Source: a virus. From it: a DNA stretch of 22,465 bases. Below are positions 1 through 14,863 of the stretch, piece after piece. Positions within the stretch are counted from its first letter, which is position 1; each line of letters opens with the position of its first letter. Location of the stretch: positions 1-22,465 of the IMG/VR virus record IMGVR_UViG_3300027747_001177; one strand, given 5' to 3'. A model generated the notes under the pieces. That model made no database searches and had not been told where the DNA came from. It saw only the letters and a program-made list of their open reading frames with translations. Both the position numbers and the translations under genes were made by a program.

Positions 1-755
1 TCTTCTGTTAATTCAATATCTTCTTTCTTCAATTTGTCATATGCTTTACCCATGTTCTGGATATCTTTGGCATTCTCTTTTGAACCCGATTGGGTTTTCC
101 CTTTCATGTATTCAGATTTTTTTTTATCCAAATATGAACTTAATGTTGATTTTGACAACTCATCAATTTGTTCAACTTCTTCTTTTTCCAGACCAAGTGG
201 ATCTTTTGCGTGCTTGACTAAAGTCTTTGCTGCATACTTTACTTCACTATCTTTACCATACATACTTTTCTTCAGACGGTCTAAGTGGTCTTTATCTGAA
301 CCACCAGTCAAAGCCTTAAATGCTTTCTTCATCAGACCTTCATCCAACTCTTTTTCAATCAATTTCTTGGCAAAAGGCATATCGTTTAGATGTTCTCTCA
401 TTTTCTTCTTTTTACCACGGAGAATGGCAAAATCTTGACCGTCAATTTTACCATTGTGATTAGCATCAATTTTAGTTTGATTACCTTTTAGTTCTTCTTT
501 GACTGGTTCTTTTTCGTCTTTTTGTTTAGAACCACCATAACGTGAACCTTCTTTTTTACCAGCACCACCTGATGGTTTAGGACCAGATTTGACTTTTTCT
601 TTGGCATCTTTAACCATATCGTCCCAACCCTCTTTAAGAAGTTCTTCTTTGACTTCTGTTGGTTGAACTGGTTGTGCAGTTTGTGTTGGTTGTTCACCAA
701 GTACTTTGTTAACCGCATCAATCATTGATTGTGACACTTTAGATTTTGCAAACAT
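1..755 (-). CDS. Partial phage protein with EF-hand-like loop (3' end outside window)
   Basis: The frame opens at ATG 755, preceded by GGAGAA seven bases upstream and 12 bases after the previous stop, and stays open for 251 codons to the window edge, so the C-terminus is missing. The product is highly charged and Lys/Glu-rich. Residues 97-108 (DANHNGKIDGQD) match a canonical EF-hand or dockerin-type calcium loop, with Asp, Asn, Asn, Gly, Ile, Asp and Asp at loop positions 1, 3, 5, 6, 8, 9 and 12. Residues 194-209 (VEQIDELSKSTLSSYL) resemble a motif I remember from uncharacterised proteins of marine T4-like phages. A nine-A run on the coding strand (117-125) lies in the frame without breaking it. 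It is the fourth gene of the late operon, so a structural or head-associated role is plausible, but no function can be assigned. Confidence 0.85.
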   Translation of the reverse strand, partial: MFAKSKVSQSMIDAVNKVLGEQPTQTAQPVQPTEVKEELLKEGWDDMVKDAKEKVKSGPKPSGGAGKKEGSRYGGSKQKDEKEPVKEELKGNQTKIDANHNGKIDGQDFAILRGKKKKMREHLNDMPFAKKLIEKELDEGLMKKAFKALTGGSDKDHLDRLKKSMYGKDSEVKYAAKTLVKHAKDPLGLEKEEVEQIDELSKSTLSSYLDKKKSEYMKGKTQSGSKENAKDIQNMGKAYDKLKKEDIELTE

Positions 756-767
756 ATTGTTCTCCGT

Positions 768-2465
768 TTATTTCTTTTTCTTTTTGGTTATATCTGAAAC
801 TTTTACTTTAACATCATTTGGTGTAACTAGAGGTTCTTTATTACTACCACCGCCAAGAACGCCACCGACACCCATATCATTTGCTCCTGGGTCATCAATC
901 GCTTCTATGACTTTTCTAAAATTTCTAAATTCTTTTTGTTCTTTATACGTTTGGTCACCTAGACCGGCTGGTAATCCAGAACGTGAACTGAATGTTGGAC
1001 CAACACCTACACCTTGAGTATTTGATCCAAACATTCTTGAAAACTTCTGCGACTTTACTTTTTCCTTGTCCTTGGAGAAGTTGCTTTCTTTTGGTTTGGG
1101 GAGGACTTCGACTTTGGGGCCGTTGTCTTCGCTATAGGCTCTGAAGGTGTAACTGGAGTTGTACTTAACGTCTCCGTCTTTGACACTATCAACTTTTCCG
1201 AGTTTTCGCTGGAATTGTTGACCTGGGGCGTTTTCTTGAATATTCCTAAAATTGTTTTTAACATTTTTAATTTCCTTAAATAAAGAACCACTTCTACGAT
1301 TCAGCCAATCTTCGGCTGTCTCTCCTAAAGTTTCAGAACCCAAAAATTCACTTGTTGATTCGTATACTGAATGGATATCTTCCTCTTTACTATCTAGGTC
1401 ACCAGTATTATCAAAATAAATGAATGTTTTAAAGGACTCATTGAAATATTTAGTATTTTCTTGTGATTTCATCCACTTGTCATGTCTAACCGATTCCAAC
1501 ATCATTTTAGACAATAATGAGTTTCTCTTTTGACTGGTTTCATTATTGGTTTCAACGAAAATCATCATTGTATCGTAACCAAGTTCTTCCAATTCTTCTT
1601 TGATAAAGGCAATTCTATCTCTATCGTCTGCCGGTCCATTAATAATAAGTGGACCACGGTTACGAATACCTTCTCTACGGAGGTCACCAGTCTTCTCCGC
1701 CAACTTCTGTTTGTCGTTCAAATAGTCTTGTGCTTGAATGAAATTTAATTCTACAATCTTAGATTCAGCAATAGCTTCACGGATAACAATATCTTTACCA
1801 GAACCTGGACCACCAGTTACAAAGATTGCTCTAAACAATCCGTAACTATAAGATTCGTGGATACCCATACCCTTGCGAGTATCGTGCATCAATTCTTTTG
1901 CGTGTGTATCAGAAACATGACTTGGAACACCATGTTTAAATTTAGAAACATCATTACTTTTAGCGTGTGCACGCATCTTGGTACCAGACATACCTTCTGT
2001 GCCTTCAGCATCAGGGTCACGTTGACCAGCAGAATGGACATGAATCTTTTTAAAATTATACAAGGCACCAGTGTGTGTACCATTAAATTTTTGTAACTTA
2101 TCTTTCATTTCTTTGACACGGTCGGAGCCAACTACCATATGAAGGTGTGACACACCCTGTTTGTGTAGTTTAGCAGCTTGGTGTAAAAATGAAGGATGTT
2201 CTTTATCTGATGACTTAAAATTAGTACCAGGAGAATATCTCTTTAGGTGTTTAATCTTTTGTGTTGCAGATAATGGATTCTTATTCTTATCTTGGCTATG
2301 TGAAGTTATAACAGTATGACCAGCACTATGTTTTGCAGCAACTTCTTTGACCTTATCAATTAATTTTAAATGACCGGTCGTGGGCGGATTCATCCGACCA
2401 TAGGTGAAAACGTGATGTGTACCATCATTATTTTCTTCCTGTACAACTTCTAAAAAGGATTTCAT
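768..2465 (-). CDS. Nucleotidyltransferase-P-loop kinase fusion, His-rich N-terminal half
   Basis: A 565-aa protein with two enzyme-like halves. Residues 18-170 look like a cytidylyltransferase-fold nucleotidyltransferase: GRMNPPTTGH at 23-32 is the (T/H)xGH signature, GSDR lies at 113-116, and SGTKMR at 160-165 matches the (I/M)SxTxxR signature of NMN adenylyltransferase-like enzymes. Residues 212-375 look like a P-loop kinase with Walker A GGPGSGKD at 218-225, in which Asp replaces the usual Ser/Thr after the lysine. The tail (about 390-565) is low complexity and ends in Lys repeats. The order NMNAT-then-kinase recalls NadR, but the substrate cannot be read here; NAD salvage or nucleic-acid end repair are both possible. 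The N-terminus MKSFLEVVQE resembles the leaders of the two upstream genes. The start overlaps the previous stop as ATGA. His is about 10% up to residue 205 and almost absent afterwards. Confidence 0.8.
   Translation of the reverse strand: MKSFLEVVQEENNDGTHHVFTYGRMNPPTTGHLKLIDKVKEVAAKHSAGHTVITSHSQDKNKNPLSATQKIKHLKRYSPGTNFKSSDKEHPSFLHQAAKLHKQGVSHLHMVVGSDRVKEMKDKLQKFNGTHTGALYNFKKIHVHSAGQRDPDAEGTEGMSGTKMRAHAKSNDVSKFKHGVPSHVSDTHAKELMHDTRKGMGIHESYSYGLFRAIFVTGGPGSGKDIVIREAIAESKIVELNFIQAQDYLNDKQKLAEKTGDLRREGIRNRGPLIINGPADDRDRIAFIKEELEELGYDTMMIFVETNNETSQKRNSLLSKMMLESVRHDKWMKSQENTKYFNESFKTFIYFDNTGDLDSKEEDIHSVYESTSEFLGSETLGETAEDWLNRRSGSLFKEIKNVKNNFRNIQENAPGQQFQRKLGKVDSVKDGDVKYNSSYTFRAYSEDNGPKVEVLPKPKESNFSKDKEKVKSQKFSRMFGSNTQGVGVGPTFSSRSGLPAGLGDQTYKEQKEFRNFRKVIEAIDDPGANDMGVGGVLGGGSNKEPLVTPNDVKVKVSDITKKKKK
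1055..1264 (-). CDS. Possible overprinted small ORF inside the kinase gene
   Basis: A 69-codon frame nested in a different reading frame of the nucleotidyltransferase-kinase gene, on the same strand. ATG 1264 has a good ribosome binding site (AAGGA, 8 bases upstream). The product would start with a short amphipathic stretch (MLKTILGIFKK) followed by a Ser/Thr/Pro/Lys-rich tail. Over roughly 1060-1240 the host frame uses unusually many C/G-ending codons (GGC, CCC, GTC, CTC, TCC, AAG) compared with the rest of this AT-rich phage, which could mean selection on a second frame. It could also be only a low-complexity linker of different origin. I do not recognise the peptide, and expression is unproven. 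Confidence 0.25.
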   Translation of the reverse strand: MLKTILGIFKKTPQVNNSSENSEKLIVSKTETLSTTPVTPSEPIAKTTAPKSKSSPNQKKATSPRTRKK

Positions 2466-3442
2466 GAATGTCCTAGCGTCTTCTTAAAAGCATTTAAATG
2501 TGTATCGTTATCCAAATCAACATGACTTTTGTTTAATCCTTTTGTTCCGGCGGGATGAAAGGCAACAGTTCTCGCACTCTTATTACCTTTTTGTTTTTCT
2601 CTTATTCTCCATTTACCTTTACCAGAAATTCTTGGTAAACCATGGCCGGTCGAATCTTTCTCACCGACACGATATGTTCCGTGGCCACCAACTTGCAAAA
2701 CATGAACGTGATGGTCTTTTAAATAACCTTCAGCTGGATGTAAATTTGGATGTTCTATTTCAGTTGTTTTTGCACGACCAGAAGCTGTTGTCTTTTCATT
2801 ATGTGGATCTGGATGATGTGTATTCATATGTTTCAATATTCCAGCTTTTTCGATATGGTGCGCATATTCAGGTCTTTTTGCTCTTTGAGAATCTTTGATA
2901 TGCCAACCTTTTTCTTTTGTATGGTGTATAGTTAACTGTCCCATAGCGGCAGTAACACCATTTTTAGTTTCTCCATTTAGTAAATGACCAGAAACTGTAC
3001 CGGCATGAAAATGGCTCTTGCTGTGTTTCTTCTTATGTTCAACAGCAAAGTCTGTACCACCAGTTGAACCTGCGCCACTCATCTCCTTTGGCATCAAACC
3101 GTGATGTTTCATTCTATCAACAAATTTAGTTTCATAATCATGTCCTTTGTTTGGAGGAGCTTCGCCAGGTTTGTGTAGTTTTGATGCAGGAATTACATGG
3201 TGGTTTCCAGTTTCATCTTCTGCATGAACATGAACTTTATCTTTTATATGTTCAACTTTGTGTATTTTTATAGCTGAACCTTTTGGTAAATCGTCATGTT
3301 CAGCCGCCAAATTATGTGAGAACTTTCCCGAACCAACATGAGGATCAATATATTTTTTTTGATGTTCAGCTCCAATTGGACCTGAACCGGTAATTTTACC
3401 TCGGCCTTCAAGTATCATCCAATGTTTAAAAGAATTTATCAT
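2462..3442 (-). CDS. His-rich protein with PD-(D/E)XK nuclease-like signature
   Basis: A 326-aa basic protein with 39 histidines (12%). From residue 102 the spacing of charged residues fits a PD-(D/E)XK nuclease core: E104 in YETKF, D131 in GGTDF, E158-x-K160 in NGETK, and Q169 in MGQL. The N-terminal 100 residues and the C-terminal third (after about 235) carry no motif I recognise. The N-terminus MINSFKHWMILE ends in I-L-E before Gly, the form of a T4 prohead protease site, and parallels the leaders of the genes on either side. Both junctions are 4-bp ATGA overlaps, so translation is probably coupled. It is the second gene behind the late promoter. The nuclease reading is motif-level only. 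The gene itself is certain from its length and overlaps. Confidence 0.75.
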   Translation of the reverse strand: MINSFKHWMILEGRGKITGSGPIGAEHQKKYIDPHVGSGKFSHNLAAEHDDLPKGSAIKIHKVEHIKDKVHVHAEDETGNHHVIPASKLHKPGEAPPNKGHDYETKFVDRMKHHGLMPKEMSGAGSTGGTDFAVEHKKKHSKSHFHAGTVSGHLLNGETKNGVTAAMGQLTIHHTKEKGWHIKDSQRAKRPEYAHHIEKAGILKHMNTHHPDPHNEKTTASGRAKTTEIEHPNLHPAEGYLKDHHVHVLQVGGHGTYRVGEKDSTGHGLPRISGKGKWRIREKQKGNKSARTVAFHPAGTKGLNKSHVDLDNDTHLNAFKKTLGHS

Positions 3443-4632
3443 TTCCTCACCTTCAATAGATTCTGTTTGGCAAATTCTGGACGATTAACCAACTTAGTAG
3501 GTTGATTATCGTGATGTACAACAAAACCTTCTGGTTTAGATTTCTTGCCGCCAATGTGGTGTTGATAATTACCCTCATGGGTTTCTAATGAATTAACCAA
3601 GTGATTCTTAGCTTGTGCTAGATGATGATGCATAGTCAATAAATTACCATAATGTGATTTGTTTTTTTCCACATGAGCAATTTGTTTGGCACCTTCAGAT
3701 GTCTTTTCGGCTTTGGACTTTTCGGTCTTCACTTTGGCTGCTTGTTTCTCATGTACATCTTTTATGTGTTCTTTGAAACCTTTGACGGAAGGAACTTCAT
3801 CGTGCCTAACTGTTTTATTGATATAAGTTGAAAGGTGGCCATGTTCACCAGAATGTGATGGATGAATTGAATCATACATTTTGTGGCCATGTGTATCGTG
3901 GATTTCTTTAGCGGCCGCCATATGTTTTTGAAATCCTGTTTCATTGGCAGCTGAGTGTTTTACTTTAGAAGTATCGTGTTCTGCACCATGGATATGAACA
4001 TCTGGATGTTCTTTGAAATTACCATGGTCGACATGAGGTGAAGCACTTTTCATATCAGCACTATACTTACTATGAACCACCACACCAACCTTAGACCTTT
4101 TAATCTTGTCTGCTTCTTTACCGTGAGCAGTATAGGTTATTGTATTTGGTGTAAAAGAGACTTTATTTTTTTCTGCTTCAAACAAATATTCTTCTTTTAA
4201 CACCTTTGTATCAGCATGGTGCATCAAATCACCTTGATATACACCAGTTTTTGGTGATACTTTTGGTAGATGTTTGAGAGCGTGTTTTAGAGCATGAGCA
4301 AGACCTGGTGCATGGCCATGGTTCTTATCAATGTCTTTTTCTGTATGGTTAATCTTTGGATTCTTATTGAAGGCAGATTTAGTAGCAACAAAGAATTTAC
4401 CATTCTTAGGGTGATGACCGAATACAATAGATGGAGAACCATCATACTTCATTGTTAGATTACTACTTTTGGCACCAGATGTCATGTTAGCGTGTGCCTT
4501 CATTAACGCAGCATGAGCGTGTTCAAAACCAGCATGGCCGTGCATCAAAGGTCTATCTTCCGCATGGTGGATGTGCTTCAGTTCCGAACCTTCGCCGGAT
4601 TCTTCTTTTAAGAATGTTGAAAACGATTGCAT
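3439..4632 (-). CDS. His-rich ligase-like protein (probably DUF6267 family)
   Basis: I start the protein at ATG 4632 (397 aa) rather than the in-frame GTG 4659, because AAGGGA lies 9 bases before the ATG and because this gives the leader MQSFSTFLKE seen in the next genes. Residues 62-65 (KYDG) fit motif I, the nucleotidylated lysine of ATP-dependent DNA/RNA ligases and capping enzymes. QGDLM at 133-137 could be motif III, KVGVVVHSKY at 181-190 could be IIIa, EGFVVH at 368-373 motif IV, and the Lys at 380 in TKLVNR motif V, all in the right order. The stretch FFVATKSAFNKNP (80-92) is what I remember as the hallmark of the uncharacterised DUF6267 family of T4-like phages. There are 49 His (12%). 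It is the first gene after the late promoter. Ligase activity is inferred, and residues 200-360 look like a lineage-specific insert or domain. Confidence 0.8.
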   Translation of the reverse strand: MQSFSTFLKEESGEGSELKHIHHAEDRPLMHGHAGFEHAHAALMKAHANMTSGAKSSNLTMKYDGSPSIVFGHHPKNGKFFVATKSAFNKNPKINHTEKDIDKNHGHAPGLAHALKHALKHLPKVSPKTGVYQGDLMHHADTKVLKEEYLFEAEKNKVSFTPNTITYTAHGKEADKIKRSKVGVVVHSKYSADMKSASPHVDHGNFKEHPDVHIHGAEHDTSKVKHSAANETGFQKHMAAAKEIHDTHGHKMYDSIHPSHSGEHGHLSTYINKTVRHDEVPSVKGFKEHIKDVHEKQAAKVKTEKSKAEKTSEGAKQIAHVEKNKSHYGNLLTMHHHLAQAKNHLVNSLETHEGNYQHHIGGKKSKPEGFVVHHDNQPTKLVNRPEFAKQNLLKVRK

Positions 4633-4676: not shown

Positions 4677-4684
4677 TATTTATA
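4677..4684 (-). promoter_or_regulatory. T4-type late promoter (TATAAATA)
   Basis: The minus strand reads TATAAATA, the exact consensus recognised in T4 by the gp55 late sigma factor. It lies in the only real intergenic gap, 44 bases before ATG 4632, leaving room for a short 5' leader with the AAGGGA ribosome binding site. A chance 8-mer of this composition is expected a few times per strand in 22 kb of AT-rich DNA, so the support comes from position as much as from sequence. Confidence 0.65.
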
Positions 4685-4755: not shown

Positions 4756-5592
4756 TTAAAGTAGGCTGTCTAGCATTTGTTCTGTATTGTACTTAGATAC
4801 ATACCCCAACTGCTGAATTTTAGATATATCCAGAACCATATTTTTGGTTTGGACTTTTTTGTGAAAGTCAACAATATCAATACTGTTGAACTTAGAGGTA
4901 GAATTAAGACGAGTTCTCACATATTCCAAAGAATTTCTTAGATATACTTTCTCACCGTTACCTATGTTATAGATTTCACCAGCTGGTGCTCTTTCTATTA
5001 CCAGATTAATTGCCTGTACAACATCATCAACATGGATGTAATCACGATATAAATCTCCACCATCATATAGGTCAATATCACGGTTTTCTCTAATCTCATT
5101 AATCAGATATTGCAAGGCATTCTTTTTCTTAGATACTTTCTTGTCATCTTTACCGAGAACATTACCCAAACGTAAGATTCTCCATTGAATACCAAATGTT
5201 TCACAATATGAAATTAACAACTGTTCGGCAGTTCTTTTGGTAATTGAATAGAATCCCTTTGGGTCACAATGTGAGTTCTCTTTGGCGGGTAACTCTACAT
5301 CACCATAGACGAACCAAGAACTTATAAAGTTGAAACAGACATTCTTATTCTTGCAAGATTCTAAGACCTTTATCAGAGTAGTTAGATTGGTATCTATATC
5401 TATGAATGGGTCGGTGTGTACGTTATAATTATCGATGGTCGAAATGAAATATACAATATCAAGTGGATGAGTGTTGTTTGATTTTACTTTATAATCATTT
5501 CTTTCATTCGACCATAAAATATTTGGTGTCAGTTCTTCGTATTTTCCACCTACAAAGCCAGAGCCACCAAATACATTAATTAATCGTTCCAC
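4756..5592 (-). CDS. Extended SDR: NAD(P)-dependent sugar epimerase/reductase
   Basis: A 278-aa Rossmann protein with the nucleotide-binding loop GGSGFVGG at residues 9-16, a Ser pair at 91-92, the catalytic Y115-x-x-x-K119 (YSITK), and the extended-SDR C-terminal motif RDYIHVDD at 183-190. The family includes NDP-sugar 4-epimerases, 4-ketoreductases and 3,5-epimerase/reductases acting on the products of 4,6-dehydratases. Here it follows the RfbH-like 3-dehydrase directly, so a terminal 4-ketoreductase or epimerase of the same deoxysugar pathway is the most economical role. The start is GTG 5592, because the glycine loop needs to lie this close to the N-terminus; it overlaps the upstream stop by 13 bases. 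It is the last gene of the glycan island. Exact substrate unknown. Confidence 0.85.
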   Translation of the reverse strand: MERLINVFGGSGFVGGKYEELTPNILWSNERNDYKVKSNNTHPLDIVYFISTIDNYNVHTDPFIDIDTNLTTLIKVLESCKNKNVCFNFISSWFVYGDVELPAKENSHCDPKGFYSITKRTAEQLLISYCETFGIQWRILRLGNVLGKDDKKVSKKKNALQYLINEIRENRDIDLYDGGDLYRDYIHVDDVVQAINLVIERAPAGEIYNIGNGEKVYLRNSLEYVRTRLNSTSKFNSIDIVDFHKKVQTKNMVLDISKIQQLGYVSKYNTEQMLDSLL

Positions 5593-6863
5593 TTCTTACA
5601 TACCTTTTCAATGTAATTTAGAATCTTATCATTCCACAGAGGAGAACATCCAACAAAGAATACATTACTTAATGCCAGATTTGAATTAGGATAATTTTTA
5701 TAATTATCCAAGTGTTGATAACCAGGATGTATTAAGATGTTGCCACTAAAGTAATTACGAGTTTGAATTTTATTAGTTTCAAAGTGAGCAACTAACTTTT
5801 CTTTTACTTCTTGTGATTCACAATAGATTGGCACACCAAACCAAGATGGGTCACCTTTAGGTAAGGCATTAATCACTCTTACCTCTTTGACATTATCTTC
5901 AATAAACTTCTGAACTTTGTTTTTATATTCACGGCGTTTCTCATCAATATATTCAAACTTCTTCAATTGTTCAATACCAATAGCACCTTGCAGGTCTAGT
6001 GGTTTCAGGTTATAACCCATTGTGGAGAAAACGTATTTGTGGTCAACAACACCATCATAGTTATTCAACCAGGTATCAAATCGATTACCACAAGTACCAC
6101 ACTCCAATAGATTATTAGAACCGATACAGTAACAATCACGGCCCCACCACGACACGGAACGCATGATATTAATCAGACCATCATCATTAGTACAAACCAT
6201 TCCACCTTCACCTGTAGAGATGTGGTGTGCGGGATAGAATGATGTAGACCAACAATAGTAATAGTCTGTCAACATCTTACCATCATAGTTAGAACCTAGT
6301 GAATCACAGTTGTCACCAATCATTAGAATACCGTGTTTCGTACAAATGTCACGTAACACATCCATATCAGGAGGGTTACCAAGAACAGGTGATATAAAGA
6401 TACCTTTGGTTCGTGGTGTAATCTTTTCTTCAATCTTAGTCAAATCGAAATTGAGAGTATCTAATTCAATATCAATGAATACTGATTTCAAACCATTCTG
6501 TTCAATTGGTGCAATTGTTGTCGGAAATCCCACAGGCGACACAATAATCTCATCACCGTTTTGCCATTTTAGATAATGCTTCAATGCAGTAATCATTACC
6601 AAGTTAGCGGAACTACCTGAGTTGACCATGTGAGAATTTTTCACTTGAAACTTTTTACTGAACTTCATTTGAAACTGTGCTACTTTTTCACCTGAGGTAA
6701 TCCATTTACCGTTCAGTAATGTATCCATGGCAGCATACATTTCATTTTCGTCCCACAATTGACCTGAATATTGAACAAATTGTCCTTCTTCATAGTTGTC
6801 ATAGTTCTTTGCATAAGCAGGCCTATTCTTAGATAGAGCCTGAATCATATCACTATATTCCAT
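5580..6863 (-). CDS. rfbH: RfbH-type CDP-4-keto-6-deoxyglucose-3-dehydrase (PLP/PMP, DegT fold)
   Basis: A 427-aa DegT/DnrJ/EryC1-fold protein. At residues 208-221 the active-site loop reads SFYPAHHISTGEGG: His213 sits where aminotransferases carry the PLP-binding lysine. This is the hallmark of the E1/RfbH/AscC and ColD 3-dehydrases, which remove the C3 hydroxyl of a 4-keto-6-deoxyhexose using pyridoxamine phosphate. The Cys pattern C186-x57-C244-x1-C246-x8-C255 nearly matches the iron-sulfur ligands described for E1 (C-x57-C-x1-C-x7-C, from memory), which points to the E1/RfbH branch rather than ColD. E1 needs a reductase partner (RfbI/AscD type); none is encoded in this window. Neighbours supply a 4,6-dehydratase, a C-methyltransferase and an SDR. 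It overlaps the upstream stop by one base (TAATG). Confidence 0.9.
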   Translation of the reverse strand: MEYSDMIQALSKNRPAYAKNYDNYEEGQFVQYSGQLWDENEMYAAMDTLLNGKWITSGEKVAQFQMKFSKKFQVKNSHMVNSGSSANLVMITALKHYLKWQNGDEIIVSPVGFPTTIAPIEQNGLKSVFIDIELDTLNFDLTKIEEKITPRTKGIFISPVLGNPPDMDVLRDICTKHGILMIGDNCDSLGSNYDGKMLTDYYYCWSTSFYPAHHISTGEGGMVCTNDDGLINIMRSVSWWGRDCYCIGSNNLLECGTCGNRFDTWLNNYDGVVDHKYVFSTMGYNLKPLDLQGAIGIEQLKKFEYIDEKRREYKNKVQKFIEDNVKEVRVINALPKGDPSWFGVPIYCESQEVKEKLVAHFETNKIQTRNYFSGNILIHPGYQHLDNYKNYPNSNLALSNVFFVGCSPLWNDKILNYIEKVCKKWND

Positions 6864-8050
6864 TATAGTTCTTTCAAGTTTAAAAATTTATCATTTGGAT
6901 TGTCTCTTTGTGCCAAAATACGTTTACGTATCTCATCAAAGAAGTTCCACGCCAAAGGTACAAACATCAGTTTATCATCTTCTGTAAAAGATTTCAATAC
7001 ATCTGAACCAACTATACCAATAGAAGAACCTGGAGTATACAGACCTTGTTTCAATGGATTATCATCAATAATCATATCCATTTTTACTTTTGAGAAATTC
7101 AACAATGTGTTACCTTTGGCTGGTGCACCATAACCAACAATCTTGTATCCTTGGTCTCTACAATAGTCAACAAACGTGCTGAACGAACTAACCATGTTCA
7201 AACATTTACTTTCATATTCCCAATAAGTCTTTGTCTTGTACAAACCAGCAACTGCTTCCATGTCAATTAGATTATTAACAGTAGCTTCGGCAGTTTTATC
7301 TGCACTAATAATAAATATATAACTTATGCCATGAATAGGTGTTTTCACCACATCAATCAGATTCAACCCTGCTCTTCTACACAATAACTTCATCGAATGA
7401 ATGTTATAGAATGAAATGTGTTCGTGATAAATTGTATCAAATTCATTATTCAGAATCATATCTGCTTGAGATGTTTGAATAAAGATTAATCCTGAATGTT
7501 CTAAATTCCTTTTACAGTTCTTTAAAAACTCAACTGGATTAGGATTGTGAGCAAAAGCATTCTGACAAACAATGATATCGGCTTTATTTGAATAAGTCTC
7601 GTCAAAATATCCACACACAACTTCGTGGTTGGCAGAAGATAAGCTATATAAATTCTCAGCTGGGTCAACGCCATATGTTTTAATACCATGGGCTTTGAAT
7701 TTATTCAACTGTGAACCATCATTGCAACCAATATCCAACACAGTGAATGGTGTGATTCTACCATACTTTTCAAGGCAGAAATCGGCAAACCAATCCATAT
7801 ATTCAACATAGGTGCTGGTAGTTCCACTCACATACAGGTAGTTCTTATAGATTAAGTCTGGATTAACAGCGTGAGTCAACTGTACGTGATAACAATTTTC
7901 ACACCTGTGAATTTTTAATGGGTATGAATCTTCGTGGTCATCTTTATTCTTTTTGTAGGAATTAGCCAACGGCTGGTCATTTAAATCAAGTACCGGAACT
8001 AATTGATCCGAGTCACAAGCCAAACATCTTTTAATTTCAGTTAAGTCCAT
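6863..8050 (-). CDS. Sugar C-methyltransferase (TylC3/NovU type)
   Basis: A 395-aa protein with the three-part layout of NDP-sugar C-methyltransferases. The N-terminal zinc domain has C9-x2-C12 and C50-x2-C53. The central SAM-binding domain has VLDIGCNDG at 104-112 and the active-site motif YHEHISFY at 208-215. The C-terminal domain has GYGAPAKGN at 306-314 and IIDDNPLKQGLYTPG at 327-341. Members transfer a methyl group from SAM to a carbon next to a 4-keto group, usually C3 (TylC3 in mycarose, NovU at C5), giving branched sugars. Length is typical of the family. Together with the 4,6-dehydratase and RfbH-like dehydrase in the same operon it suggests a C-methylated deoxyhexose. The junction with the next gene is a one-base overlap. 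Confidence 0.9.
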   Translation of the reverse strand: MDLTEIKRCLACDSDQLVPVLDLNDQPLANSYKKNKDDHEDSYPLKIHRCENCYHVQLTHAVNPDLIYKNYLYVSGTTSTYVEYMDWFADFCLEKYGRITPFTVLDIGCNDGSQLNKFKAHGIKTYGVDPAENLYSLSSANHEVVCGYFDETYSNKADIIVCQNAFAHNPNPVEFLKNCKRNLEHSGLIFIQTSQADMILNNEFDTIYHEHISFYNIHSMKLLCRRAGLNLIDVVKTPIHGISYIFIISADKTAEATVNNLIDMEAVAGLYKTKTYWEYESKCLNMVSSFSTFVDYCRDQGYKIVGYGAPAKGNTLLNFSKVKMDMIIDDNPLKQGLYTPGSSIGIVGSDVLKSFTEDDKLMFVPLAWNFFDEIRKRILAQRDNPNDKFLNLKEL

Positions 8051-8778
8051 TATCTACCTTCATAAAAATTCTTATAGTTGTGAATCATATCATAATGATT
8101 CTTCATCTCACTCAAATCAAGATTTGGATTTTCTGGGAAAATATTATGTAATCTTGGATTAACACTATATTTAACACCACACAGGAAGAAATAAACTTGT
8201 AGGAAACAATCATTCCATCCTAATTGTGCTTGGTTTTGATGTAGTCTATCAAAATCTTTATCCAGAAATTCAACAAATCTATAAAAATTCTGAATGAATG
8301 TTGACGTTTTCATAATTGTTCCTGCACCAACACCATATTGTTTTCTGTCAGGTTTAACACCAGAGATTCTTTCACAAGTGTCTAGTATATCTTGGTTGAT
8401 ATAATTTCCAACAGTAATATCATATGAAGCAACTTCCCAAGTCTCATCAAATTGTATTTCATTCAAACAAATCACATCATCTTCAGAAATAATAAAATGT
8501 GTTGTATTCATACAAACAGCAGCCATCATCATTCGTTTGACGAAATTAAATACACGTATTTTATCAAAACCCCAATGAGGCGATGGATAACCTAAATCGA
8601 AATCTGCATGAAGATAGTTTACATTATATTTTCTACATATGTCATAGTGTGAACCACCAGCAGCATCACAAGCAACAAAATATGGTGCATTTGGATGATA
8701 CTTACGAAAAGAGGCAATCGAGGCCTCTAATCCGGATTTATTATCTTTATTCCAATGATATATGCCTAATGAAGCCAT
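8050..8778 (-). CDS. Probable GT-A-fold glycosyltransferase
   Basis: A 242-aa protein starting with a beta strand (SLGIYHWNK) and a stretch resembling the GT-A nucleotide-binding half. SEDDV at residues 98-102 (after the hydrophobic HFII) is a plausible DxD-type metal/nucleotide-sugar motif. HQNQAQLGWNDCFLQ at about 187-201 could carry the catalytic acid region typical of GT-A enzymes. No signal peptide or transmembrane segment is visible, so it would act in the cytoplasm on nucleotide-sugar donors. It lies between the acetyltransferase and the C-methyltransferase with one-base overlaps on each side. I do not recognise the specific family, and the glycosyltransferase call rests on fold-like pattern and context. 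Confidence 0.6.
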   Translation of the reverse strand: MASLGIYHWNKDNKSGLEASIASFRKYHPNAPYFVACDAAGGSHYDICRKYNVNYLHADFDLGYPSPHWGFDKIRVFNFVKRMMMAAVCMNTTHFIISEDDVICLNEIQFDETWEVASYDITVGNYINQDILDTCERISGVKPDRKQYGVGAGTIMKTSTFIQNFYRFVEFLDKDFDRLHQNQAQLGWNDCFLQVYFFLCGVKYSVNPRLHNIFPENPNLDLSEMKNHYDMIHNYKNFYEGR

Positions 8779-9356
8779 TAGTTTCCGCCTTTGATGATTT
8801 GATTTATTTGATTAATAATTTCCATCGTAGGTTCTTGTTGTAACAATGGTAGAATTTTATTAATCATTTCGTCTGGCAAATCCCACCACTTCATTTCTAA
8901 AAGAGCATCAATAATCTCTTTATCGAAACGAAATTTTATTAATTTTGCTGGATTGCCACCATATATTGCATAAGGTTCAATGTCTTTAAATACATGAGAG
9001 TTTGTTGCGACAACAGCACCATGGCCAACAGTAACACCAGACATGACAGTAACAGATTCTCCAAACCAAACATCGGAACCAATATTGATATCTCCTTTAG
9101 TTTGAACTTTTGGTAGAATTGCAATGTTGTTAAATATTTCGTTTCTTGGACCTAAATTACCAAATGCATAATTCGTACAAGCTTTAGGATTATGTGCAAC
9201 ACCTTCGGATGGAAAAAATCTACATCCTAATCCTATTCCAGTAAAAGCACCAATGTTGACAGAAGGTCTTGTTGGGTCAGCATAAGAAATAAATTCTCTT
9301 ACCGTTGTTGTGTAAGTATCAGTTCCATAAGTATATTTGCCTACTGATTTAATCAT
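8778..9356 (-). CDS. Left-handed beta-helix acetyltransferase (CatB/VatD-like)
   Basis: From ATG 9356 (192 aa); the upstream in-frame GTG 9365 is less likely because AGGTGG lies 5 bases before the ATG and the ATG forms an ATGA overlap with the dehydratase stop. Hexapeptide repeats run through residues 30-125 (for example IGAFTGIGLG, and INIGSDVWFGESVTVMSGV from 90). The C-terminus has YAIYGGNPAKLIKFRF, characteristic of the xenobiotic/sugar O-acetyltransferase group, which uses acetyl-CoA. The catalytic His is probably H56 or H112. In this island the likely role is O- or N-acetylation of the hexose. N-acetylation would need an amino sugar, and the only DegT-fold protein here is a dehydrase, so O-acetylation fits better. 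Confidence 0.85.
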   Translation of the reverse strand: MIKSVGKYTYGTDTYTTTVREFISYADPTRPSVNIGAFTGIGLGCRFFPSEGVAHNPKACTNYAFGNLGPRNEIFNNIAILPKVQTKGDINIGSDVWFGESVTVMSGVTVGHGAVVATNSHVFKDIEPYAIYGGNPAKLIKFRFDKEIIDALLEMKWWDLPDEMINKILPLLQQEPTMEIINQINQIIKGGN

Positions 9357-10384
9357 TTCAACCACCTTTTATTTTCTAGTGTCCATAATGTCATCTCTTT
9401 AATACGTTCACTCAGTTTGATTTTAGGTTCCCAACCAAGTGACTTTAATAAACCACCATCTAAGGCATATCGTAAATCGTGGCCAGGTCTACTACCGTGA
9501 AAGTCAACCATTTCATAAACCAGTTCTTTACCTTGTGCATCAGCAATCATTTGTGCTAGTGTTAGATTATCTATTTCTTCGGTACCAACAAGATTGAATT
9601 TAGGACAATGAGCGTGGCCATAATCACCTGTATGTTTGTAATCTTTAAGTCCTAGAATAAACATTAGTCCTTCTGCCACATCTTTGGCATGAATGTACAT
9701 ACGAGTACCTGCGTGTGTTCTAGTTGGGTCAGCATGAATGAATATCTTTTCACCATCTCTGACACGTTGAATACACATAGGAATAAACTTCTCTGGATGT
9801 TGACGTTCACCAAACACATTCATTGTATGTGTAACAACGATTGGCATTTTATATGTGTTTTCATAAGCAACACAAAATTCTTCTGCTGCAGCCTTGGATG
9901 CTGAATATGGATTTGTAGAATTATATCTATCATATTCTTTATATGAAACACCAGGAGGTGCCACACCAAATATTTCATCTGTTGAGAAATATACGAATCG
10001 TTCCAGATTAGGTAAGTGTTTACGAGCATAGTCAAGCATATTGACTGTACCAACAGTATTGTCTTGTACAAACTCTAATGGAAATTCTATACTTCGGTCT
10101 ACGTGACTGCCAGCTGCCAAATGTAAAACGATATCAACAGGACCAATGTCTTTGACAATCATTTCATTAAGTTCTGCTTTCAAATCATGGAAAACAATAC
10201 GTAATCTTTTAGAAACAACTTTTGGGTCGTGGTCTTGTAACATATCATGTAATCGATTTAGATTACCAGATATATCTAATCTATCTAAACAGATAATCTT
10301 CCAATCTGTTTCTTTAAGCATCTTGTCAATCACATGGTGAGCAATAAAGCCAGCACCACCTGTAATCAAAACATTTTTACTCAT
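9353..10384 (-). CDS. NDP-hexose 4,6-dehydratase (RmlB/RfbG-like SDR)
   Basis: A 343-aa extended SDR. Residues 9-17 (GGAGFIAHH) form the NAD-binding loop, with Ala where most family members have the third Gly. STDEIFG at 134-140 contains the Thr-Asp-Glu triad specific to 4,6-dehydratases, and Y160-x-x-x-K164 (YSASK) is the catalytic pair. HLAAGSHVDRSI at 88-99 and GERQHPEKFIP also match RmlB-type enzymes. The enzyme converts an NDP-hexose to its 4-keto-6-deoxy form, the entry step for the deoxysugar genes downstream. Sequence features look RmlB-like (dTDP-glucose), while the RfbH-like partner would use a CDP-sugar, so the nucleotide is undecided. No nucleotidyltransferase making the NDP-hexose is present in this window; the host or another phage region must supply it. 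ATGA overlap with the upstream gene. Confidence 0.9.
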   Translation of the reverse strand: MSKNVLITGGAGFIAHHVIDKMLKETDWKIICLDRLDISGNLNRLHDMLQDHDPKVVSKRLRIVFHDLKAELNEMIVKDIGPVDIVLHLAAGSHVDRSIEFPLEFVQDNTVGTVNMLDYARKHLPNLERFVYFSTDEIFGVAPPGVSYKEYDRYNSTNPYSASKAAAEEFCVAYENTYKMPIVVTHTMNVFGERQHPEKFIPMCIQRVRDGEKIFIHADPTRTHAGTRMYIHAKDVAEGLMFILGLKDYKHTGDYGHAHCPKFNLVGTEEIDNLTLAQMIADAQGKELVYEMVDFHGSRPGHDLRYALDGGLLKSLGWEPKIKLSERIKEMTLWTLENKRWLK

Positions 10385-11061
10385 AATTTAACTCCATAAT
10401 AATTGGCAACTCCGTGTTTGCCATGAAACCCTAAACTCTTACCTAACCACTCTGAATGATAATTATGTTCAATACTGAATCTGTCGGCCAATTGAACCTT
10501 AGCAAATTTAATTCCATAATTGTTGATTAGTGTATTTCTATGTATCCTACAAATAATATTGTCTTCGGGAATAAACTTATCTCCAGAGTCATCTTGTACA
10601 AAATAAAAATCACTAAACATATAATCTTGGTAATCTTCAGGTAAATTCTTTATTTTCATATCAATAAAGGCATCATATAATTTTCTGGAACGTAAACAGA
10701 AACCTCCGTTACCAACAAAACCATTATCCCATCTAGCACCAATATAATCTTGTTCTAAGAATTCATCCGTCCATGCATCAGCATTAACGGCAAAGCCATC
10801 AGCGTGAATAATTAAATTATGTTCTTCAACACAAACTTCTGGACATAATTTTAATGTTACGTGACTATAATCATTGTGATATGATGTTATCTTTGGTATA
10901 ACAATCCAAGTAACTGGTACACCAACATCTTCAGGAAAATCAATATCCGAAAACCAATAAACTCTAGTGATTTTATCTCCTAGAGTTTCTATTGTTCTTT
11001 TTAGTGCATCGATTGTAGGTTTATAGTGTAGTGTATCAATACAGGTAATACCTATTGCCAT
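10381..11061 (-). CDS. DUF5672-type putative glycosyltransferase
   Basis: A 226-aa protein matching my memory of DUF5672, a family found in polysaccharide loci. HADGF at residues 86-90, the FLEQDYIGARW region (100-110), VGNGGFCLRSRKL (115-127) and PEDNIICRI (165-173) are the conserved blocks, and LGFHGKHG lies near the end. The layout (acidic loop, then GNGGF acceptor-like loop, then E-D) suggests a GT-A-like fold. No membrane segment is seen. It overlaps the upstream gene by 10 bases and the dehydratase by 4, so all are probably translated from one message. The family's reaction is not established as far as I know. A role in glycan assembly is inferred from context. Confidence 0.7.
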   Translation of the reverse strand: MAIGITCIDTLHYKPTIDALKRTIETLGDKITRVYWFSDIDFPEDVGVPVTWIVIPKITSYHNDYSHVTLKLCPEVCVEEHNLIIHADGFAVNADAWTDEFLEQDYIGARWDNGFVGNGGFCLRSRKLYDAFIDMKIKNLPEDYQDYMFSDFYFVQDDSGDKFIPEDNIICRIHRNTLINNYGIKFAKVQLADRFSIEHNYHSEWLGKSLGFHGKHGVANYYGVKL

Positions 11062-11777
11062 TGTGTACTTTCAAAATCTAACCAATATGTGTTTAATTTA
11101 CCTTTACCTTGTGTAAGATAAAACGGTAAAGTGTGGACAAGACCACGACTAGAGTTATAGTATATCAGTTCTTCTGGTCCTCTGTCAAGAGCCCATGCAA
11201 AATGACTAGTACCAGTATCACCACCAATAAAGATTTCTGCCTCTTGTATGTGGTGAATATTCGTCATAAAATCATGTGAATACTTCCACTTTTTATAATC
11301 TGGTCTATTGTGTCTGTCTTTTATACAAATGATTTTTTCATAATCATCATACTGTTCGGTATTGTATTTGTCGATTATATCTTCAAATAGAATATTTGGC
11401 CAATTACGATATACATTATATGGAGCATCAAATAATGGAAACACAACAATCTTCTTTTTCATTTCCACTTTGTTTGGTATCTTAACCAAATCACCAGAGA
11501 TATCTCTAAAGTCCCATAAATTAACTCTACGCCAAGGCAAAGTTTCTTGGCCAGGAAGAATTGTAAAATAGTCTGTTGCGTTTAATAGAAATTGGTAGAA
11601 ATCTTGGCAATATTTTTCAGAATTTATTCCTGGCCATTCTTGTATAATGTTAAATTTAATTGTTGAATCTTTCCTAGTCTTTCTTAGATACTCAACAACA
11701 TTAGCAACGCCAATCATGTCACCATTACGTAGAGCGCCACCAAAAGTTCCAGGTTTAATATCAATAATTGTAGTCAT
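11052..11777 (-). CDS. GT9-like (heptosyltransferase-like) putative glycosyltransferase
   Basis: A 241-aa protein. The N-terminal segment IDIKPGTFGGALRNGDMIG and the C-terminal loop EIFIGGDTGTSHFAWAL (around 193-209) resemble the ADP-heptosyltransferase/GT-B nucleotide-sugar site, where a D(S/T)GxxHxA pattern contacts the donor. It is shorter than usual GT9 enzymes (about 330-350 aa), so it may be a reduced version. ATG 11777 overlaps the previous gene by 17 bases. It is one of two GT9-like proteins in the island (see 12456-13202). Acceptor and donor unknown; a divergent GT-B fold without activity cannot be excluded. Confidence 0.6.
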   Translation of the reverse strand: MTTIIDIKPGTFGGALRNGDMIGVANVVEYLRKTRKDSTIKFNIIQEWPGINSEKYCQDFYQFLLNATDYFTILPGQETLPWRRVNLWDFRDISGDLVKIPNKVEMKKKIVVFPLFDAPYNVYRNWPNILFEDIIDKYNTEQYDDYEKIICIKDRHNRPDYKKWKYSHDFMTNIHHIQEAEIFIGGDTGTSHFAWALDRGPEELIYYNSSRGLVHTLPFYLTQGKGKLNTYWLDFESTQWQ

Positions 11778-12459
11778 ATAATTTATTTCCGTCCATAGAA
11801 GAAAAATGGTGTACAGAATTTGGTGGCAGTTCTAACATCTCATCATAAGTTGAATAACCATGTAGTTGATGAATTAATCCTTTGTCTCTAATAGAATTAA
11901 GCCAAACTCTTTCTAAAGCTTGTACCGGAAGTGCATCGAATCTATGAATCTCATTCATAGAAAGTGTATCTCTAACAAACTGAACATCTCCAAAAAAACA
12001 CAAGGTACCGATACCAAAATCATCTTGTAGTGTTATGAGTTTTTGGTTTATTGATTCAAATTTTTTAATTAGTTTTGGAAAATCCAAGTTTGGTTGTTGG
12101 TCATAACAAAGCTTCAACACATTCTTAAACCCATAACGACTAAGTATATTCAAACCATTGTGTATAGCTGTCATCTCAGCAACTCCATAATTTGGTCTAG
12201 TGGGTACACCATCTATTTGCCAACAGTTATCAGAATCGTAAATTGATGAATGACAATAACTCTGTGTTTCTTCATCCAAAATAGAATGTGAGGAAAGACA
12301 GATATAATAACCAGTCTCTTTTAAATGCTTCACCAAAGTCCTAAGCATTCTACGTTTCTTTTGTACGACTGAAAAATCTCCGCAACTATGGTGTTCCGGA
12401 TCATTACCTCCAGTATAAGAAGTAATTAATATTGCGGTGTCCTTTGATACTATATTCAT
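11761..12459 (-). CDS. Uncharacterised protein of the glycan island
   Basis: A 232-aa protein I do not recognise. It opens with a strand-like TAILITSYTGG, followed by a Lys/Arg-rich helix and the hydrophobic YYICLSSHS, and has NVLKLCYDQQPNLDF at about 113-127, loosely like the core of GT-A glycosyltransferases such as the WavE group. No transmembrane helix or signal peptide is visible. The start overlaps the upstream stop as ATGA and its own end overlaps the next gene by 17 bases, so it is firmly part of the operon. A glycosyltransferase or glycan-related role is inferred only from context. Confidence 0.6.
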   Translation of the reverse strand: MNIVSKDTAILITSYTGGNDPEHHSCGDFSVVQKKRRMLRTLVKHLKETGYYICLSSHSILDEETQSYCHSSIYDSDNCWQIDGVPTRPNYGVAEMTAIHNGLNILSRYGFKNVLKLCYDQQPNLDFPKLIKKFESINQKLITLQDDFGIGTLCFFGDVQFVRDTLSMNEIHRFDALPVQALERVWLNSIRDKGLIHQLHGYSTYDEMLELPPNSVHHFSSMDGNKLYDYNY

Positions 12460-13202
12460 TTCATCATGCCTTCTAAATTATTTGCGTGAATTAAACGAGC
12501 ATTACGATTCATATAGAAATGTTTTTCGAATACCTTATCAATGTTTTTACCATTATCCCAAGACACATCATCACCAACTCTAAATTCTGGATTCCAGTCT
12601 TCTGCTTTCCATACACAATACAAAGGAACATTACATAAGTCAGCCAACATACCGACACCAGTTAAATTGGTAATAAAGGGTTTCTTTAGATTCTTAATGA
12701 TATAAGCATTTTCTAATATAGGTCTTTCAAAATCAATAAATTCATAATTGTTTAGATGTGACAGTATGTGTGTTTTTCTGCGAGCATCAATATTACCTAC
12801 AGACCACCTATCACCAACATAATATGTATCTTTGACTTCAATATCAAATTCTGGAGTTTTAATAATGAATTCATCATCAACATCAAACATTATTCCAAAA
12901 TTATCTTTCATAAAGTTTTCATAACGACAAGTTTCAATTGGTCTATTTGGGTTGTTCTTATCTTCTCTGATAGGCCATGAACTCATTTGCATGATATCAC
13001 CATACATAAACACCTCATCATCAAACATGACATCTGTGAATAAGTCCTGATACATTAGGAATTCTACAAGTCCTTTAAACTTTCTCATTTCTTTTTTGAT
13101 AGTTAAAGAATACTTACCATATTCTTTACTGATACCTGACATGACAGGTAGTCCATTTAAAAAGTCGCCAAGGTTGGCAGTTCCATTAAGATATATTCTC
13201 AT
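12456..13202 (-). CDS. Putative GT9/GT-B-like glycosyltransferase
   Basis: Start chosen at ATG 13202 (248 aa), which has AGGAAA about 7 bases upstream and overlaps the previous stop by 17 bases. The longer in-frame extension to 13271 only shadows the upstream gene. The N-terminal RIYLNGTANLGDFLNGLPV resembles the GT9 signature (a GD...LP turn after the first strand). LTGVGMLADLCNVPLYCVW at about 181-199 corresponds to the heptosyltransferase donor-site helix in position. The protein is short for the family, and the Asp of the D(S/T)GxxH motif is not evident. It lies between the HtrL-like gene and the unknown 232-aa gene. Confidence 0.55.
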   Translation of the reverse strand: MRIYLNGTANLGDFLNGLPVMSGISKEYGKYSLTIKKEMRKFKGLVEFLMYQDLFTDVMFDDEVFMYGDIMQMSSWPIREDKNNPNRPIETCRYENFMKDNFGIMFDVDDEFIIKTPEFDIEVKDTYYVGDRWSVGNIDARRKTHILSHLNNYEFIDFERPILENAYIIKNLKKPFITNLTGVGMLADLCNVPLYCVWKAEDWNPEFRVGDDVSWDNGKNIDKVFEKHFYMNRNARLIHANNLEGMMK

Positions 13203-13995
13203 TGTATTTCCTAAAAGCAATAAACCAATCATCGTGTGAGATTGGGTGTAATTCAAATTTATCAGGCTCAATCAATGAAGACATTAACAATAGTGTTTGG
13301 TCATCATCAATCAAATCTTTGGATATCAATTCATCAAAGCTTTGATTCATCAATCTTTCTAATTCAGGCCACATCTTTTGACTTGAAACAATACAGGGTC
13401 CTGTGATATGCACATCATTATTGGATATAATATTAGTTATCGTATTGCTTGGATTAAAATCTTTAATATTGAAGAAATGTATTTTATCTTTATTAAAAGG
13501 ATATTCCCATAACTTAACACTGTTTAGTGTAGATGGTTCACGGCAGTATCCAAAATCTAGCCACGCAATCAAATCGGTATCGAATACACCGGCACCAATT
13601 GCATGATTAACAAAATGTGATTTAAGGAAATTCACAAGTACATAATCTGATGACCAATACTCTGGATTTTTAACTTGATTTGGATTAATCTTAGCCAAGA
13701 ATTCTGGATTGTTTTGAACTCTTTTAATCTTTTCACGGTATTCACCAAATTGGTCCTCAAAATCTATCGTGACAACAACTGTTTTGTCCGTTTTATCTTT
13801 TCTAATTTCCCAAACTTTTTCGGCCAATTCTTCGGATGTGTAAACAACAATAGTATTATCCAAACTTGCCATATTGGCAAATCTTTCAAAGTACGTATCA
13901 TTTGTTCTTTGTAGATAGTGTGGTAGTCCTTTTTCTGGAGTCCAATCACCTCGGCCTATATCAAAGAAAGCCGTTACAATACTAATTTCATTCAT
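13186..13995 (-). CDS. HtrL/YibB family protein
   Basis: Start chosen at ATG 13995 (269 aa), with AAGG six bases upstream and one base after the preceding TAA. The open frame extends to 14094 but without comparable support. The opening SIVTAFFDIGRGDW (residues 4-17), then YLQRTNDTYFERFANMASLDN (27-47) and AWLDFGYCR (144-152), are the blocks I know from the HtrL_YibB family. That family sits in LPS core or capsule gene clusters of bacteria and resembles GT-A glycosyltransferases. The Asp in WLDFGY would then be the metal-binding residue. The biochemical role of the family is not well established. Placement among glycosyltransferases here is consistent with sugar transfer. Confidence 0.8.
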   Translation of the reverse strand: MNEISIVTAFFDIGRGDWTPEKGLPHYLQRTNDTYFERFANMASLDNTIVVYTSEELAEKVWEIRKDKTDKTVVVTIDFEDQFGEYREKIKRVQNNPEFLAKINPNQVKNPEYWSSDYVLVNFLKSHFVNHAIGAGVFDTDLIAWLDFGYCREPSTLNSVKLWEYPFNKDKIHFFNIKDFNPSNTITNIISNNDVHITGPCIVSSQKMWPELERLMNQSFDELISKDLIDDDQTLLLMSSLIEPDKFELHPISHDDWFIAFRKYNENIS

Positions 13996-13996
13996 A

Positions 13997-14863
13997 TTAA
14001 ACCTTGTATGTAAAGAACTGTGATGGGTCATCCTGTTTGAATTTCTTCTGTACAAATTCTTTCCATTCAGGTACACGGTCATATTGATGTACAATACAGA
14101 AAGGTTTACCTAATGAATTAGAAACAATACCATCATAGAATACAGGTTCAAGCTCGGTTAAATTTGGTCTGAAACCATCAATCTTAGATGGGTCAGCAAC
14201 TGTTCCTGCCTGTACAGCCCAAGCTTCATGTTGTTTTGTGTAATGAATAACATTCTTATATGGTTGAGTTTGAATCAACACATTGTAGACCGCCTGGTCA
14301 ACGATAGGAATAGGTCTATTGGTTGCATTACTGAAGATGTTGAACACCAAGTCTTTAATATATTCAGACGAACCTGCAAGCACTCCTACGTTGTAGATTT
14401 CATTGTCTTTAAATTTGTTATAGATGTAACCGCCATAAGTTTCCATTAAGTTTTGGTTGCCCCATGATTCATCTTTGTAACGAATAGATTCTGCACCTGC
14501 CACAAGTTGTTTCATATCTTTAACACCAATATTGTGGTAGTCTAACCATTCAAATGGGTCTGTCTGAAAATAAACATCTTTTACATCTGTTGTAATGACA
14601 TGGTTATACTTCTGCCAATTCTTGGAGAGATAATCATAGATGGAAAGAAATCTTAAAACGTGTACGGGAATATTGGCTTCTGGCATATCTACCAGTTCAA
14701 ATCCTTTGTTAGCCAAAATAGATTTGGTTTCGTCTGTTGCATTACCCACACACATAACTCTATGTGCATCAGGCATCACTTCACAAATTGATTCAACCCA
14801 CGGTTTAAGTTGATTGTAGTTATAGTTGGTGAATCCACCAATAATTAAGTTTTGTTTCGCCAT
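13997..14863 (-). CDS. Putative nucleotide-diphospho-sugar transferase (DVxDVxFQxDPF motif)
   Basis: A 288-aa protein. Residues 93-104 read DVKDVYFQTDPF, the DxxD block of nucleotide-diphospho-sugar transferases (the GT77-like group has DVRDVVFQ), where the first Asp residues bind the metal and UDP-sugar. IPIVDQAVYN at about 185-194 corresponds to the conserved D-Q region of the acceptor half, and CIVHQYDR near 266 to the final His strand. Preceded by GGAGAA with a five-base spacer, and its start overlaps the GT2 gene by 19 bases. No membrane segments, so cytoplasmic. Donor and acceptor unknown. Confidence 0.75.
   Translation of the reverse strand: MAKQNLIIGGFTNYNYNQLKPWVESICEVMPDAHRVMCVGNATDETKSILANKGFELVDMPEANIPVHVLRFLSIYDYLSKNWQKYNHVITTDVKDVYFQTDPFEWLDYHNIGVKDMKQLVAGAESIRYKDESWGNQNLMETYGGYIYNKFKDNEIYNVGVLAGSSEYIKDLVFNIFSNATNRPIPIVDQAVYNVLIQTQPYKNVIHYTKQHEAWAVQAGTVADPSKIDGFRPNLTELEPVFYDGIVSNSLGKPFCIVHQYDRVPEWKEFVQKKFKQDDPSQFFTYKV

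Follow-up and report, generated by a model that had tools for sequence, protein, structure and literature searches.

A probable capsid-targeting leader on three enzyme-like proteins of a T4-like, lake-type phage

What does a short N-terminal leader do when it is shared by three consecutive enzyme-like proteins of a T4-like phage? The leader occurs in IMG/VR virus record IMGVR_UViG_3300027747_001177 (positions 1 to 22,465), a viral contig of 22,465 bases from a T4-like, lake-type phage, hereafter the window, on the products of genes P0001, P0002 and P0003. These leaders are very probably T4-type capsid-targeting sequences (CTS), by which the enzymes of one operon would be loaded into the prohead, clipped and injected with the DNA. 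At the protein level, the closest named phages are Kyanoviridae such as HTVC008M, Melnitz and the cyanophages, and the close relatives of the window are environmental IMG/VR contigs. The features concerned are the following.

4677..4684, minus strand: T4-type late promoter TATAAATA, 52 nucleotides upstream of the P0001 ATG
3439..4632, minus strand: P0001, ATG at 4632, Pfam family DUF6267
4603..4632, minus strand: CTS-like leader of P0001, MQSFSTFLKE (from translation)
2462..3442, minus strand: P0002, ATG at 3442, without a Pfam family
3407..3442, minus strand: CTS-like leader of P0002, MINSFKHWMILE, a two-residue-longer variant
768..2465, minus strand: P0003, ATG at 2465, NMNAT/cytidylyltransferase-like domain and P-loop kinase domain
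2436..2465, minus strand: CTS-like leader of P0003, MKSFLEVVQE, a match to the strict pattern given below

The genes are joined by ATGA overlaps (P0001/P0002 at 3439–3442, P0002/P0003 at 2462–2465) and form a translationally coupled operon; the three leader-bearing, enzyme-like products are 326–565 residues long.

A leader constrained at four positions

An earlier note on this DNA, made from its letters alone, had reported the three leaders at starts 4632, 3442 and 2465, and translation returned exactly these N-termini, all on the minus strand. For counting we used a strict pattern, M-x-x-[FY]-x-x-[FYWVIL]-[LIVMT]-x-E, derived from T4 ipII and ipIII and the first relatives seen. Just two of the 28 called genes of the window, P0001 and P0003, match it, P0002 being the longer variant, which agrees with the note's statement that no other gene of the window starts in this way. 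At internal methionines the pattern was matched at 7 of 5,012 sites in six related genomes and at none of 141 in the window, and about 0.04 matches would be expected by chance among the 28 window starts. In T4 it finds ipII and ipIII only (2 of 253 called genes). Searching related genomes had been the note's own proposal; across the roughly 1,350 genes of six near-complete relatives there are 21 strict matches, 17 of them inside this locus. The other four lie two each in genomes G002 and G004, and three of the four start with GTG or TTG. The exact 30-base DNA version of the pattern gave 0–3 matches per genome in ten isolates, and a reversed-pattern control gave none in ten genomes. The resemblance of the leaders is real and well above chance.

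Position-specific constraint was measured on 97 distinct N-termini of P0001 homologues with at least 45% identity, collected with no pattern filter. Phenylalanine at residue 4 was kept in 96 of 97, F/Y at residue 7 in 96, L/I at residue 8 in all 97 and glutamate at residue 10 in 95. Entropy at these four residues was 0.08–0.65 bit, compared with 1.9–2.5 bits at positions 2, 3, 5, 6 and 9 and mostly 1.6–2.7 bits over residues 12–25. The fixed residues are encoded by varying synonymous codons, six of them for L8. The linker that follows residue 11 varies in sequence and length, and the AlphaFold2 model of P0001 (predicted local distance difference test, pLDDT, 89.6) shows leader and linker, residues 1–17, as disordered. 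Amber-suppressor mutagenesis of T4 IPIII assigned targeting mainly to residues 4 and 7 and processing to residues 8 and 10 (review PMC9026906), and the annotation of GenBank X04567 has IPIII processed after residue 10. Because the four constrained positions are those singled out by mutagenesis, this is the strongest sequence argument for a CTS.

The leaders of P0002 relatives include MKSFGSFLNE, MISFKSFLLE and MHSFKSFLVE. Relatives of P0003 in the strict set keep F/Y4 (F4 in P0003 itself) and E10, with mainly V/L/I at positions 7 and 8. In homologues the leader persists down to about 30% identity, including Melnitz, DLP_6 and distant DUF6267 proteins (MNNFNQFLTE, MQSFLTFLTE). Four consecutive Melnitz genes start MQGFKTFLSE, LINFSKYITE, MKKFSELTSE and MKKFSEIIEA; the DLP_6 DUF6267 protein begins MMKFTQFLAE and the P-TIM40 NMNAT MRFLDFIKE, while relatives of the window carry further downstream leader genes (MKSFKQFVTE, MKTFKEYINE). 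To judge from these N-termini, the leader appears to move among neighbouring cargo genes. A separate pattern match in P-TIM40 was discarded as spurious, as it falls inside a large gene.

The earlier note had also placed a late promoter directly before these genes, and TATAAATA at 4684 bears this out. The motif is present within 300 nucleotides upstream in 104 of 155 distinct P0001 homologues, mostly at 40–59 nucleotides, against a background of 0.86% of random 300-nucleotide tiles. Since it is nearly absent before P0002 (1 of 52 homologues) and P0003 (3 of 154), the distribution fits a single late operon. In relatives the cargo cluster sits in the gp41–gp61 interval, and a gp21-type prohead protease (Peptidase_S77) was found in 8 of 9 related contigs, the window itself being a fragment.

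Leader-bearing proteins in cyanophage virions

Published virion proteomes provide the second line of evidence. Purified-virion mass spectrometry of S-SM1 named T4-GC190 a virion protein (PMC3037559); a GenBank record ties GC190 to SSM1_190, a P0003 homologue that starts MKKFSAFLNEAE, and close relatives of SSM1_190 in 80 contigs have the strict leader in 21 of 21 distinct N-termini. T4-GC15, the core virion protein named together with GC190, was considered as a further cluster member and rejected: it is SSM1_017, an annotated tail protein outside the cluster. Three other P0003 homologues were detected in virions, namely S-SZBM1_140 (PMC9146016), which starts MRFRQFIIEA, S-SCSM1 gp91 (PMC9602691), which starts MKSFLQFLKEAA, and the NMNAT S-CREM2 gp154 (PMC10665884), which starts MKNFSSFLTEAD.

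Comparison of all 219 S-CREM2 genes with Table 3 of that proteome placed the strict leader on gp6 (SAM hydrolase), gp14 (kinase) and gp154. All three were detected, versus 49 of the remaining 216 (Fisher's test, p = 0.013; p = 0.0022 among non-structural genes). When the pattern is loosened, gp13 and gp136 are added and 5 of 7 are detected. Across the four proteomed phages, five of the seven matches to the exact ATG pattern were detected (p ~0.0035; the denominator for S-SCSM1 is approximate). The strict motif was fixed before the proteomes were examined, the looser one was not, and gp6 and gp12–15 of S-CREM2 had been viewed by eye before the genome-wide count. Untagged enzymes beside the tagged ones in S-CREM2 (gp4, gp8, gp10 and gp11) are not among the detected proteins. 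Similarly, the tagged NMNAT of S-SZBM1 was detected, and the adjoining untagged DUF6267 protein is absent from the table of detected proteins. The Cas9-like virion protein gp12 of S-CREM2 (L442, 7704-10313) has a CTS motif, RFASFMAEA, at residues 18–26; its start may be misannotated, or the address may be internal.

Taken with the match to the T4 CTS at the four mutagenesis residues, the finding of P0003 homologues in four cyanophage virions strongly supports prohead loading, as the earlier note had proposed. Packaging is well supported for P0003 by its leader-bearing homologues in these proteomes; for P0001 and P0002 it is likely by leader, operon and analogy. Trimming after LKE, ILE and VQE, and injection, are what the T4 precedent would lead one to expect. 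Given a shared address tag and tagged relatives in virions, injection of several enzymes along with the DNA is probable for this phage.

Several observations weigh against this interpretation. The cleavage motif of P0003 is imperfect: of the sites that the earlier note had matched to the T4 rule, L/I8 and E10 in P0001 and ILE in P0002 fit well, and VQE in P0003 is only a near match. Among 51 distinct strict leaders of P0003 relatives, 27 have L/I in place of its valine. One sub-clade of these relatives begins MKSFLEKLE, with KLE a poorer cleavage site. Many marine DUF6267 proteins have no leader while the adjoining NMNAT bears one, and some P0002 homologues (73–95% identity) have another N-terminus before the same [IL]-x-E/GRGK junction. 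Conserved homologues lacking the leader, which the note had regarded as damaging to its proposal, thus exist in part, in these two groups; the P0001 homologues at or above 45% identity are nearly invariant at residues 4, 7, 8 and 10. In the virions, leaderless proteins were detected as well, so the leader is not the sole route into the particle, and the leader-bearing S-SZBM1_191 and S-SCSM1_30 were not recorded as detected. Finally, virions purified on caesium chloride can contain abundant cell proteins, according to the authors of two of the proteome papers.

The alternative P0002 N-termini read MNINQLTRQQQIFLERAG...ILE/GRGK or MIDRQKQIYWERAG...ILSE/GRGK (L130, L088, L012, G006:C1:114304-116345), and in G006 the gene preceding the P0002 homologue starts similarly, MISLQRKIWLDRAG. 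Possibly packaging is abolished there, or this is a second kind of address. S-SZBM1_191 and S-SCSM1_30 belong to a small family of about 105 residues that starts MKSFKSFLSESVNISGDFNGNLY; the S-SCSM1 member adjoins the terminase gene.

Enzyme-like cargo

P0001 matches Pfam DUF6267 (E = 1.3e-94). It contains K62-Y-D-G, D135, E368-G-F-V and K380-L-V, and 49 diverse DUF6267 members all share K62, D64, G65, E368, G369, V371 and K380, so that P0001 has motif I (KxDG), motif IV (EGxV) and the motif V lysine of the ligase superfamily. The best non-family Foldseek matches of its model in PDB include DNA ligase I, NAD+-dependent ligases, the Pnkp1/Rnl/Hen1 RNA repair complex, tRNA ligase, capping enzyme and RNA editing ligase; those in BFVD include RNA ligase 2 and DNA ligases. 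All of these matches are individually weak (E > 0.03) and mixed with unrelated folds. One DUF6267 member matches RNA_lig_T4_1 at E = 0.018. Alignment of DUF6267 to single T4 ligases with hhalign gave no match, and T4 ligases were not ranked when the profile was compared with all T4 proteins, which keeps the ligase reading provisional. With this caveat, motifs and model make P0001 a probable covalent-nucleotidyltransferase (ligase)-like enzyme. Two observations point to DUF6267–NMNAT fusions: a single PHROG profile matches both P0001 and P0003, each in a different part, and the complete DUF6267 fold is spanned by an S-PM2 protein whose annotation is cytidyltransferase-like.

P0002 matched no family in Pfam, PHROGs or NCBIfam. 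Its invariant residues, E104...D131...E158-x-K160...Q169, are kept even in a P-TIM40 protein at 25% identity, the only, weak link that was found, as tblastn searches of isolated phages gave no match. The AlphaFold2 model is poor in the motif region and a PDB fold search gave no informative match. At the level of motifs P0002 is a putative PD-(D/E)XK nuclease-like protein.

In P0003 an NMNAT/cytidylyltransferase-like domain at about residues 20–205 (TTGH at 29, SGTKMR at 160) is joined to a P-loop kinase domain with GGPGSGK at 218, and a C-terminal tail follows. The CTP_transf_like match in Pfam (E = 5.3e-07) is above the cut-off, and the (H/T)xGH and SxTxxR motifs are present. HTVC008M has the kinase as a gene of its own, with matches to Zeta_toxin and AAA_33. 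None of the mature parts of P0001–P0003 matched the IPI, IPII or IPIII families, and IPIII as query finds enterobacterial phages.

P0001 and P0002, which show no similarity between them, have the highest histidine contents in the window (12%, where the median is 2.4%). Homologues of P0001 are at or near the top in histidine content in six relatives and are basic (isoelectric point mostly 9–10); the histidine columns are mostly not conserved. The idea that histidine-richness goes with the leader itself was dropped, since distant marine DUF6267 proteins bear the leader with 1–2% histidine.

A fourth gene of the cluster follows downstream.

3..755, minus strand: P0004, next gene in the cluster, without a CTS leader; one weak EF-hand/dockerin-like loop

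The loop, DANHNGKIDGQDF, gives a weak Pfam match. Aspartate-rich loops resembling it occur in SSM1_191 and SCSM1_92, the latter a listed virion protein. Positions 4756–15570, which separate the helicase region from the cargo cluster, hold a run of genes that by eye are sugar-, aminotransferase-, epimerase-, glycosyltransferase- and methyltransferase-like. The run looks like a surface-glycan island; Melnitz has no such run at that place.

Alternative explanations and known systems

The mechanism we propose follows T4. The late promoter would drive the coupled operon, whose first three products carry the N-terminal address; the aromatic residues 4 and 7 would bind the prohead core, and gp21 would cut at a site made up of L/I8 and E10. 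As the head is assembled, the enzymes would enter the core, be clipped after the glutamate, stay with the packaged DNA and be delivered at infection. This cargo, namely the ligase-like P0001, the putative nuclease P0002 and P0003 with its fused NMNAT and P-loop kinase domains, could then be active before phage gene expression, most likely on nucleic-acid ends, NAD+ or both at the start of infection.

The N-termini could instead be an amphipathic docking helix that holds the enzymes to each other, to the replisome or to the membrane, the virion NMNAT then being contamination. Docking through short amphipathic helices is common, the cluster has replication genes (gp41, gp61) around it, and the proteome authors themselves raise carry-over. 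However, the pattern matches T4 ipII and ipIII including the E10 cleavage residue, detection recurs in four phages from separate studies, unrelated tagged enzymes of S-CREM2 were found where untagged neighbours were not, and the operon has a late promoter. We consider docking unlikely.

A second alternative accepts prohead targeting and takes the proteins as scaffold or structural core helpers rather than injected enzymes. T4 internal proteins do reside in the core, and P0001 and P0002 are basic and very histidine-rich, like DNA-binding internal proteins. On the other hand, the NMNAT and P-loop motifs of P0003 and the ligase-like invariant residues of P0001 are kept, so catalysis seems conserved, and the S-CREM2 tag sits on a SAM hydrolase, a kinase and an NMNAT; a purely structural role is quite improbable. 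Similarity by chance or through shared ancestry of the three genes can be dismissed despite the shortness of a ten-residue leader, given the background of internal matches, the empty reversed control, the dissimilarity of the proteins outside the leader in family and domain content, and position-specific constraint with synonymous variation.

Beyond delivery of these enzymes, a wider and decidedly tentative idea is that T4-like phages in general, coliphages, cyanophages and lake phages alike, use the CTS to address their cargo, and that a conserved gp41–gp61 cargo locus delivers a ready-made repair kit as infection begins. If so, the fusions (DUF6267–NMNAT in S-PM2, NMNAT–kinase here) would link ligase-like, nuclease-like and NMNAT–kinase activities into one pathway, in which ends might be healed and sealed or NAD+ regenerated for a coupled ligase, and the kit might shield incoming DNA or tRNAs from host defence.

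That phages package enzymes is already known from T4 Alt and the NMNAT-like virion proteins, and the presence of the latter in cyanophage virions, with a guess of host entry, is already published. In the literature searched, which lay outside subscription papers, the CTS was not tied to cyanophages or their enzymes, the terms co-occurring only in a T4 review, and neither the CTS link nor a multi-enzyme operon was found. The leader would give a simple sequence rule for why an NMNAT, a SAM hydrolase, a kinase and possibly a Cas9-like nuclease occur in cyanophage virions. Such a rule predicts further injected proteins of abundant aquatic T4-like phages, and with it isolated odd findings from proteomics become a system that can be tested. 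For DUF6267, which occurs in several hundred sequenced cyanophages, it would suggest where the protein may act.

For T4, internal proteins directed by a CTS and the injection of the enzyme Alt are textbook knowledge (PMC3012670, PMC9026906). With IPI, IPII and IPIII the present proteins share the ten-residue N-terminal layout, constraint at positions 4, 7, 8 and 10, a late promoter and basic character; the mature parts are unrelated, and here there are three enzyme-like proteins in one coupled operon, known from sequence. Alt, a packaged ADP-ribosyltransferase, is likewise a head-carried enzyme, clipped at an ITE site and injected, but its leader is MELITE and its enzymatic activity differs. 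T4 gp61.1 (AF158101 18966-19130), a hypothetical protein in the gp41–gp61 interval, starts with the CTS-like MKTFKEFIKE, but has 54 residues and no enzyme domain. A further parallel is found in the NMNAT-like virion proteins of cyanophages (T4-GC190 and those of S-CBWM1, S-SZBM1, S-SCSM1 and S-CREM2), homologues of the N-terminal domain of P0003; those of S-SM1, S-SZBM1, S-SCSM1 and S-CREM2 bear the same kind of leader. In the marine phages examined, in contrast, DUF6267 is mostly leaderless, and P0003 of the window has an added kinase domain.

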